A stretch of 64,000 bases of DNA from Limisalsivibrio acetivorans (GTDB lineage Bacteria; Chrysiogenota; Deferribacteres; Deferribacterales; Geovibrionaceae), in the NCBI RefSeq assembly GCF_000421105.1, contig NZ_ATWF01000001.1:2243407-2307406 (forward strand). The letters run 5' to 3'. The notes under the pieces were generated by a model. The model was given only the letters and a program-made list of their open reading frames with translations, did not search any database and was not told the origin of the DNA. Every line of letters starts with the position of its first letter. Position 1 is the first letter of the stretch. This document shows, piece after piece, positions 50,573 through 53,522 of this stretch. The translations under genes were made by a program, and so were the position numbers.

Positions 50573-51913
50573 ATGGAAGACGCCAAGATTTGGGAAGAAG
50601 TTCTCAAGGAAGCAAAAAAACACTGTTCAGATGAGGTGGTTTCCACCTGGATAAAGCCGCTGAAGATCGTGGAGGTTCGTGGTGATCTTATCACTCTTCA
50701 AGCCCCTAACCGTTTCTATAAGGGGTGGGTTGAAGAGAAGTATATGGACACCATGCGCAAGATTTTCAATGAAGGCCTTTCCATCGATGCCGACGTGCGC
50801 ATCGTTGTGGCGGAGGGGAAGAAAAGGACCCCCGCAGCCGTGGAGGAAGTTCAGCCGAACGGAGTCACAGAGCAGCCCTATTATTCCAATAATACCGGGC
50901 TTAACCGTGAGAATACCTTCGAAAACTTCGTAGCCGGAAGCTCAAACCAGTTTAGCCACGCCGCCTGCCTTGCAGTATCCGAGGGGCATTTCCAGATGTA
51001 TAACCCGCTCTTTATCTATGGAGGAGTAGGGCTTGGCAAAACTCACCTGATGCAGGCCGCCGGAAACCGTATCCTTGAACGTTTTCCTAAGATGAAGGTT
51101 CTCTACATCACCAGCGAAACCTTTACAAACGAGATGATCAACTCACTGCGCTCCAAAAAAATGGACGAATTCCGTAATAAATACAGGAATATCGACATGC
51201 TGCTCTTCGATGATGTCCAGTTTCTGGCGGGGAAACAGCGCAGTACCGAAGAGTTTTTCCATACCTTTAACACCCTCTACGACATGCACAAGCAGATTAT
51301 CCTCACCAGTGACAAGACACCTGGAGAGATCCCCGAGATGGAGGAGAGGCTTATAAGCCGGTTTGCGTGGGGACTCATCGCTGATATTCAAACACCCACC
51401 GCCGAGGAAAAAACAGCGATTATGATGAAAAGAGCGGATATGATGAACCTTAGACTACCCGAAGAGGTGGCACTTTTCATCGCAGAAAATATAAAAACCG
51501 AAAATATTCGAGAATTAATCGGAGCTCTCGTCCGCTTGAGCGCATACGCCTCATTCCACAACGAACCCCTCAGTATCGACCTTGCTAGAAAATCGCTGGA
51601 TCGCTTTCTGGTAAAGAAAGACAGGATGGTAACCCAGGACGATATCATCAAGGCTGTCACCGAATATTTCAATGTTAAGCTCGCCGATCTCAAGTCTAAA
51701 AAGAGAACGAGAAGTGTTTCTGTACCAAGGCAATTATCGATGTATCTGCTAAGGGATAAACTCTCTATGTCATTGCAGGAGGTGGGAGATCTCTTCGGCG
51801 GCCGCGACCACTCCACCGTGCTCCACGCCGTTCAGACCATCGAAAAGAAGGTTCGGGATGACAAAGAGATACAGTCTATAGTAGAATCTATAGAGAAGAC
51901 GCTTTATTCATAG
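50573..51913 (+). CDS. dnaA: Chromosomal replication initiator DnaA
   Basis: The protein has 446 residues. Domain I starts EDAKIWEEVLKEAKKHCSDE. The AAA+ domain has Walker A YGGVGLGKTHLMQAAGN, Walker B MLLFDDVQFL and sensor elements. Domain IV has the DNA-binding signature FGGRDHSTVLHAVQTIE. GTG 50564 is an alternative start only two bases after the Shine-Dalgarno AAAAGG; ATG 50573 has 11-base spacing, so neither is ideal. dnaN and recF do not follow; the next gene is an ArsR regulator. Confidence 0.96.
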   Translation: MEDAKIWEEVLKEAKKHCSDEVVSTWIKPLKIVEVRGDLITLQAPNRFYKGWVEEKYMDTMRKIFNEGLSIDADVRIVVAEGKKRTPAAVEEVQPNGVTEQPYYSNNTGLNRENTFENFVAGSSNQFSHAACLAVSEGHFQMYNPLFIYGGVGLGKTHLMQAAGNRILERFPKMKVLYITSETFTNEMINSLRSKKMDEFRNKYRNIDMLLFDDVQFLAGKQRSTEEFFHTFNTLYDMHKQIILTSDKTPGEIPEMEERLISRFAWGLIADIQTPTAEEKTAIMMKRADMMNLRLPEEVALFIAENIKTENIRELIGALVRLSAYASFHNEPLSIDLARKSLDRFLVKKDRMVTQDDIIKAVTEYFNVKLADLKSKKRTRSVSVPRQLSMYLLRDKLSMSLQEVGDLFGGRDHSTVLHAVQTIEKKVRDDKEIQSIVESIEKTLYS

Positions 51914-51968: not shown

Positions 51969-52319
51969 ATGGCAGAGGAGTTTGTTCAACTTAACGAACC
52001 GGACAGCAGCGACCTTAGCTATCTTAAAGAGAAGATGGCGGAGAATGACGATCTTGAGAGGCTATCTGAGATATATAAGCTCATGGGCGACCCCACGAGG
52101 ATGAAGATCCTCTATGCGCTTACCCTTTCTGAGCTTTGTGTTAGCGATATCTCCGAGCTTCTTGATATGACGCAGTCCGCGGTTTCTCATCAGCTCAGGC
52201 TTCTGCGTGCATCAAGGCTGGTTAAGTACAGAAAGGCCGGTAAGAATGTTTACTACAGCCTCGGCGGCAACGATCTCGATTCCGTTATAAAGGCAGGGAT
52301 CGAAGAGATAAGCGGTTAG
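51969..52319 (+). CDS. ArsR/SmtB-family transcription regulator
   Basis: The protein has 116 residues. The winged helix carries LMGDPTRMKILYALTLSELCVSDISELLDMTQSAVSHQLRLLRAS. The helix-3 metal motif ELCVSD keeps only one cysteine (Cys57) of the usual ELCVCD, so metal sensing by this site is doubtful or altered. ATG 51969 has GGAGG six bases upstream. The stop is eight bases before the selenoprotein start, so the two are co-transcribed and the regulator may control the selenoprotein. Confidence 0.9.
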   Translation: MAEEFVQLNEPDSSDLSYLKEKMAENDDLERLSEIYKLMGDPTRMKILYALTLSELCVSDISELLDMTQSAVSHQLRLLRASRLVKYRKAGKNVYYSLGGNDLDSVIKAGIEEISG

Positions 52320-52327
52320 GGGGAGCT

Positions 52328-52552
52328 ATGACTGTTAAGATAACCTACTGCGCTGTCTGAAACTACTATGCTAGAGCCGCCGGTCTGGCGGAGAGGATAG
52401 AGGAAGAGACGGGCACTAAGCCGGAGCTTGTGATGGGGAAGAACGGTGTTTTCGACATCACAGCTGACGGTGAAGAGATATACGCCAAAAGCAAAACGGG
52501 GCGATTTCCCGAAGATATTGAAATAATACGCAGAATTAAATCCCTCCCTTAG
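52328..52552 (+). CDS. SelW/Rdx-family selenoprotein with in-frame UGA (Sec11)
   Basis: The protein has 74 residues if TGA at 52358-52360 is read as selenocysteine. It starts MTVKITYCAV-Sec-NYYARAAGLAER, giving the Rdx redox motif Cys8-x-x-Sec11, and continues NGVFDITADGEEIYAKSKTG with RFPEDIEIIRR, which are the conserved C-terminal SelW elements. GGGGAG precedes the ATG. A hairpin with apical GGTCT lies 16 bases after the UGA, as in bacterial SECIS elements. SelW-like proteins are small thioredoxin-fold oxidoreductases. A gene finder that treats TGA as stop would miss it completely. Confidence 0.93.
52358..52391 (+). promoter_or_regulatory. Bacterial SECIS element of the SelW-like gene
   Basis: From the UGA (52358-52360), 16 bases lead to the stem CCGCC (52377-52381), apical loop GGTCT (52382-52386) and GGCGG (52387-52391). 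The GGUCU loop equals that of the E. coli fdhF SECIS, which binds SelB, and the UGA-to-loop distance of 21 bases is in the working range. Confidence 0.85.
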
Positions 52553-53223
52553 CCGTAAGCCTTCTTTGCAAGCTGAAACCACCGCACAGCCTCTTTGTTA
52601 TTCTGCTCCACGCCAAGTCCACCCTCATACATACAGCCAAGGTTGTAGAACGCCTCTGGGTAGGCCTGGGAAGCTGCTGCCCTGTACCATTTAACCGCCT
52701 CGTTGTAGTCCTTAAGTATTCCTCTGCCGGAGGCATACATAAGCCCCATTCTGTTCTGTGCGGGAGCGTAACCCTTCTCCGCCGATTTAAGAATTAGCTC
52801 AAAAGCTCTTTCGTCATCTCTTTCGACGTATTTTCCATGAAGGTAGAGCATGCCTACCCTGTACATGGACTCGGTATGCCCCTTCTCCGCCGCAGATAAG
52901 AGCCACTTAAGCCCGTGCATGGGGCGTTTGTCCACCCCTCTTCCACGCATGAGTATCTCCCCCGCCCTGTACTGCGCCTCGGGCAGGTTAAGTTTTGAGG
53001 CCATAAGGTACATCTTAAGTGCCTTGACCGGGGATTTAGGCAAACCCATACCGTTTTCGTGCATCATGCCTATGGCCATGAGTGCCTCTGCGGAACCCCT
53101 TTCGGCCAGCTCCACAAATATACGGTAAGCGAGACTGAAATTCTCCGCAGCCAGGGCATCTGCCCCTTTCTCTAGATTTGGTCCTTTGCCGAAGAGCCGG
53201 CTGAGCTTTTTCTTTATGTTCAT
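52549..53223 (-). CDS. Sel1-like repeat (TPR-type) protein
   Basis: The protein has 224 residues, apparently cytoplasmic. About five Sel1 repeats of 36 residues cover residues 25-220; each has the pattern A-x2-LG-x-MY-x2-G-x-GV-x-KD (GLMYASGRGILKDYNEAVKWY, NLGCMYEGGLGVEQN). Such proteins act as protein-interaction scaffolds. Its stop codon overlaps the stop of the convergent selenoprotein gene by four bases. Confidence 0.9.
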   Translation of the reverse strand: MNIKKKLSRLFGKGPNLEKGADALAAENFSLAYRIFVELAERGSAEALMAIGMMHENGMGLPKSPVKALKMYLMASKLNLPEAQYRAGEILMRGRGVDKRPMHGLKWLLSAAEKGHTESMYRVGMLYLHGKYVERDDERAFELILKSAEKGYAPAQNRMGLMYASGRGILKDYNEAVKWYRAAASQAYPEAFYNLGCMYEGGLGVEQNNKEAVRWFQLAKKAYG

Positions 53224-53357: not shown

Positions 53358-53522
53358 ATGTCAGAGAAGGACGATCAGAAGATTCAGGCCGTAGAGATCA
53401 AATGTGTTAATTGTGACTACACTCAAATTATCTACCTCCCGAAGGAACAGCCCGGAAGATGCCCGGAATGCGGCGGAGGAATGATCATTTCAGAAATTCT
53501 TGAAGAAGGGAAATCTTACTAG
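53358..53522 (+). CDS. Small zinc-ribbon protein
   Basis: The protein has 54 residues. Two knuckles, CVNCDY and CPECGG (C-x2-C ... C-x2-C, 21 residues apart), form a zinc ribbon (rubredoxin-like). ATG 53358 has GGAG seven bases upstream. It is followed after 13 bases by the amino-acid ABC transporter genes and may share their transcript. The role is unknown; nucleic-acid binding or a regulatory function is possible. Confidence 0.82.
   Translation: MSEKDDQKIQAVEIKCVNCDYTQIIYLPKEQPGRCPECGGGMIISEILEEGKSY

Follow-up and report, generated by a model that had tools for sequence, protein, structure and literature searches.

In bacteria, SelB carrying Sec-tRNA binds an RNA hairpin and delivers selenocysteine (Sec) at a UGA codon. 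Bacterial SelW-like selenoproteins, which were described by 2005 at the latest (PMC1088965; 2006, PMC1794560), formed the most abundant selenoprotein family in the Sargasso Sea set, with 48 genes (PMC1088965). A redox role for this family was inferred from its CxxU motif (PMC1088965), and few or no cysteine homologues were found in Sec-using bacteria (PMC1088965, PMC1794560). The SECIS element of the bacterial SelW-like genes lies in the coding region, whereas that of eukaryotes lies in the 3' UTR (PMC1088965). The published model of the bacterial SECIS specifies an apical loop of 3-9 nt with G at the first two positions, an upper stem of 4-16 bp, 16-37 nt from the UGA to the loop, an energy of -7.5 kcal/mol or lower and conservation of the structure in homologues (PMC13188914). 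In Epsilonproteobacteria, SelW genes have already been noted as absent from annotation (PMC4607533).

The window analyzed here is a stretch of 64,000 nucleotides from the genome of Limisalsivibrio acetivorans (contig NZ_ATWF01000001.1), and it holds a member of this well-known family (Table 1). The locus is read as a SelW-like selenoprotein gene whose UGA is almost certainly decoded as Sec in a manner that depends on SelB and the hairpin, with a rough probability of 0.96. It differs in kind in no way from the described bacterial SelW-like genes (PMC1088965, PMC1794560), with which it shares the CxxU motif, the SelW family and a SECIS inside the coding region; its own particulars are an identity of 30-45% to the nearest aligned copies and a position adjoining arsR. 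The original prediction had placed the gene at 52328-52552 and its TGA at 52358-52360, and these coordinates proved exact when checked against the sequence, with the start codon ATG at 52328 and the stop codon TAG at 52550-52552; the ribosome-binding site that it had claimed upstream was located as GGGGGAG at 52319-52325. With the TGA taken as Sec, the product is MTVKITYCAVUNYYARAAGLAERIEEETGTKPELVMGKNGVFDITADGEEIYAKSKTGRFPEDIEIIRRIKSLP, in which the redox motif Cys8-A-V-Sec11 stands near the N-terminus with the UGA at U.

Table 1. Features of the selW-like locus and its neighbors, in window coordinates
Feature	Position	Strand	Basis
ArsR/SmtB-type regulator, 116 aa, ELCVSDIS without the second metal-site Cys	51969..52319	+	HTH_5 E 1.7e-17, NF033788
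Ribosome-binding site GGGGGAG, ending 2 bases upstream of the ATG and in contact with the stop codon of arsR	52319..52325	+	sequence
selW-like gene, 74 aa with predicted Sec11 (CxxU), Rdx family	52328..52552	+	sequence, Pfam, profile searches
In-frame UGA, predicted to be read as selenocysteine	52358..52360	+	TGA in homologue alignment; Cys in Cys forms
Bacterial SECIS apical hairpin CCGCC-GGUCU-GGCGG, 21 nt from UGA to loop	52377..52391	+	fold, covariation, codon-19 restriction
Sel1-repeat protein, convergent, overlapping the SelW stop codon; outside the Sec mechanism	52549..53223	-	Sel1 E 2.2e-45

The claim of a complete 74-residue Rdx/SelW protein with a Cys-x-x-Sec motif is borne out by profile searches. 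Pfam reports a match to Rdx (PF10262) over nearly the whole length at E 4.2e-18 (65.8 bits against a curated cut-off of 22.6), and TIGR02174 (CXXU_selWTH) is passed with 49.4 bits against a cut-off of 34.2. The best NCBIfam match is NF041051 (SelTWH_Campy, E 4.3e-21), the SelW of Campylobacterota, whose genes were likewise missed by annotation (PMC4607533); at 75 bits the window's frame stays below the curated cut-off of 88 and is thus not assigned to that sub-family. Structures of cysteine-type Rdx proteins, namely 2FA8 (Atu0228), 2OKA and 2P0G, share the core and the C-terminus, with CxxC in place of CxxU, and the match to 2FA8 (E 1.8e-7) suggests a thioredoxin-like fold for the window's protein. 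Mammalian selenoprotein W (2NPB) shares the family name and the CxxU motif, but its similarity is marginal (E 0.45).

The possibility of a chance match was evaluated with a profile built only from residues downstream of the TGA, taken from loci of other organisms. Among the 1,339 frames that the window yields when TGA is read through, the frame at 52328-52552 is the sole significant match (E 4.8e-24), the next best reaching 0.085. When the peptide was shuffled 2,000 times, no version scored higher than 9.4 bits, compared with 82.7 for the real one. The match of the read-through frame to SelW is not due to chance.

The host genome (2.97 Mb, 3 contigs, 99.99% complete) was then searched for selA, selB, selC (tRNA-Sec) and selD, as had been suggested, and all four were found, so that the machinery is present rather than absent. 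The tRNA-Sec scores 63.6 bits with RF01852, for which the gathering score is 47, and ARAGORN likewise reports a tRNA-SeC with anticodon tca. The selA gene lies at C1:1049079-1050395 (549 bits), the adjacent selB (275 bits) starts about 20 bases after it, and selD is located at C1:2107322-2108242 (330 bits). The selD gene itself carries an in-frame TGA near its N-terminus (AAGU-AAKLGP), presumably at the active-site Sec/Cys position of SelD, followed by a hairpin, which marks a Sec-containing SelD. Together with SelW, the genome therefore has at least two selenoprotein genes; FdhA was checked as a further candidate, and no internal stop was reported for it.

Homologues were next compared across the UGA. 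A search of 100 genomes, comprising relatives and others, returned 8 SelW matches (7 beyond that of the window), each with exactly one TGA and all with that codon aligned at the CxxU position. A DNA pattern with the TGA fixed (TAYTGY-N6-TGA-AAYTAY-NNN-SCN-MRN-GCN-GC) was then used to scan more widely, and it yielded at least 118 stretches with TGA at the same codon from many phyla and groups, including Gemmatimonadota, Acidobacteriota, Planctomycetota, Poribacteria, Desulfobacteraceae and Marinimicrobia among those listed. Within this listed set, the SelW C-terminus follows the TGA in all 116 stretches that have enough downstream sequence, the 116 foreign post-TGA peptides all match the SelW profile with E no worse than 3.4e-10, and the downstream frame is intact and of SelW length (median 75 aa) in nearly all loci. 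In a further phylum, 50 of 50 Rdx matches contain one TGA. Homologues were looked at for translation that always ends at this UGA, and they show read-through instead of termination. Cysteine forms, in which TGC or TGT takes the place of the Sec codon, occur in Alphaproteobacteria, Enterobacteriaceae and Nocardia. In the proposed alignment with Cys-type SelW proteins, Cys does stand at the Sec position in 10 homologues (9 from plasmids and 1 genomic). Within the host family, selA is present in 9 of 12 genomes, and SelW occurs in 4 of the 9 with selA and in none of the 3 without.

Under the standard code the SelW frame stops at the TGA, which would also be the case if translation really terminated there and the locus were a SelW pseudogene, or a former Cys gene in which TGT or TGC had mutated to TGA. 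This explanation is extremely improbable and has in effect been refuted by the comparative data, given the identical codon in at least 118 loci of many phyla with a nearly always intact downstream frame, the complete Sec machinery of the host and the covarying SECIS hairpin described below. Two of the compared loci have features of their own. A 690-kb Cytobacillus plasmid (NZ_CP089998.1, 370647-370871) carries an unannotated Sec-type SelW beside selD, with compensated SECIS pairs. At locus L151 (TGA at 1678, reverse strand), the SelW frame meets no stop codon and extends into a 6-phosphofructokinase-like sequence that lacks its N-terminus, for a total of 388 aa, which may represent a fusion, a deletion or an assembly error.

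The original prediction had also proposed a stem with a GGUCU loop as the bacterial SECIS, and this element is upheld by wobble covariation and by a restriction on codon 19 in 87 homologues. The local minimum free energy fold around the hairpin has -15.1 kcal/mol over 48 nt, and with its GGUCU loop, 5-bp stem and 21-nt spacing it satisfies the SECIS model of PMC13188914. An Rfam search gave nothing credible at the SelW locus. The single-sequence z-score of the hairpin is a modest -1.5, and 15 of 200 shuffled sequences fold just as well; one sequence therefore does not prove the hairpin, and it is the comparative evidence that does so.

The covariation set consists of 87 non-redundant SelW homologues, most of them retrieved with the TGA-containing DNA pattern. 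That pattern stops short of codon 19 and leaves the wobble bases unconstrained, but it is selective for a single branch of the family. Two stem pairs join wobble positions, those of codons 17-21 and of codons 18-20. Since both bases are third codon positions, these pairs are largely free of protein constraint. They are Watson-Crick in 76/87 and 84/87 homologues, against 43.5 and 66.1 expected from shuffles that ignore relatedness, occur as C-G, G-C, A-T and T-A versions, and covary more strongly than any other wobble pair scanned in the stretch. Codon 19, in the apical loop, has G as its middle base in 87/87 homologues and reads NGU in 74 and NGG in 13, with NGC or NGA in none; all 43 serines at this codon are AGT, although serine has six codons. 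The requirement for NGU or NGG confines residue 19 to Gly, Ser or Arg in almost all cases, and in this way the SECIS tightly constrains the SelW protein. Across the 87 homologues the RNA limits this loop residue to Gly, Ser, Arg or Trp, and the Cys homologues have Trp only. The latter differ from the Sec forms in having TGG at codon 19 in 10/10 cases, with NGU absent, and in keeping the two wobble stem pairs inconsistently (5/10 and 6/10).

What computation established is the gene itself, sequence conservation on both sides of the UGA, the hairpin in the RNA and the presence of the machinery for decoding. In the proposed mechanism, the hairpin just downstream of the UGA would recruit SelB carrying Sec-tRNA(Sec), and the codon would then be decoded as Sec to give the Rdx protein with its C8-A-V-U11 motif. 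By analogy with its family, the window's SelW may act as a small thiol/selenol oxidoreductase that cycles a Cys8-Sec11 selenenylsulfide. In genome G002 (L028 1501-3032), SelW directly follows a same-strand gene for a thioredoxin reductase-like protein, with a small DsrE-like ORF preceding; the reductase-like neighbor offers a hint that TrxB may serve as electron donor to SelW.

Standard annotation would miss the SelW gene, since the selenocysteine codon within it is nominally a stop codon. An antisense ORF of 88 aa (52316-52582, minus strand) spans the locus; it has no match in Pfam and could act as a lure for gene callers. The present reading corrects the annotation gap with a conserved selenoprotein gene that would ordinarily be cut to 10 codons or replaced by the antisense ORF.

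The linkage to an ArsR-type regulator with an altered metal motif had been regarded as unusual and as a sign of regulation by selenium or redox state. The first part stands, as the adjacency is uncommon and was seen only here, but the second is not supported, as the ArsR proteins of relatives are encoded elsewhere with the same altered motif. The regulator matches NF033788 (HTH_metalloreg) at E 7.4e-26. Its gene precedes selW by 8-9 bases on the same strand, a spacing found only in the window among the loci compared, and the two genes are probably co-transcribed. In eight genomes of the family, the closest ArsR homologues adjoin recR/YbaB, a DegT-type aminotransferase or EF-Tu (genes named by inspecting their translations rather than by searching for families), and none has SelW beside it. 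These relatives carry ELCVQD or ELCVAD where the window has ELCVSD, with Q, A or S replacing the second Cys; since their ArsR is altered alike away from SelW, the motif characterizes the subfamily rather than this locus. A similar ArsR is adjacent to SelW in none of the 118 other loci listed, with one found on the same fragment more than 1 kb away.

It is therefore unlikely that arsR and selW form a dedicated operon in which an altered-sensor ArsR controls SelW in response to selenium or redox state, even though the shared strand, the 8-9-base gap and the ribosome-binding site touching the arsR stop codon are as such an operon would have them. A sigma-70-like site also lies upstream at 51858-51887, but the number of such sites (one) is not above chance expectation. 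Still less probable is the more specific form, in which an ArsR without the second metal-site Cys would sense oxidants or reactive selenium or sulfur species and control the selenoprotein as a selenium- or redox-responsive unit.

The origin of the locus was considered from its other flank. In two sister-genus genomes that lack selA, Sel1 comes immediately after dnaA. This arrangement suggests that the arsR-selW pair was either acquired as one block in the window's genome or lost as one in those of the sister genus. A tree of 75 columns places this SelW together with Desulfobacteraceae-type sequences (94/79), apart from the other copies of the family. The tree is a weak hint of horizontal gain, and it is tentatively possible, at somewhat less than even odds, that an insertion placed arsR and selW between dnaA and Sel1 and that selW came from a Desulfobacteraceae-like donor instead of being inherited within the family. 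The short tree is weakly supported, however, and the Sel1-repeat gene is also convergent to SelW in two relatives (G006 and G009), which suggests an old neighborhood. The Sel1-repeat gene lies beside dnaA in the window's genome and in most of the sister genus; in two other genera it lies beside a 3-methyladenine-glycosylase-like gene, and an MsbA-type ABC transporter gene most often flanks it on the far side (L168-L179). Further along the window, positions 53359-53522 encode a small, zinc-ribbon-like protein with two CxxC pairs (CVNCDYTQ...CPECGG) that adjoins an amino-acid ABC transporter operon.
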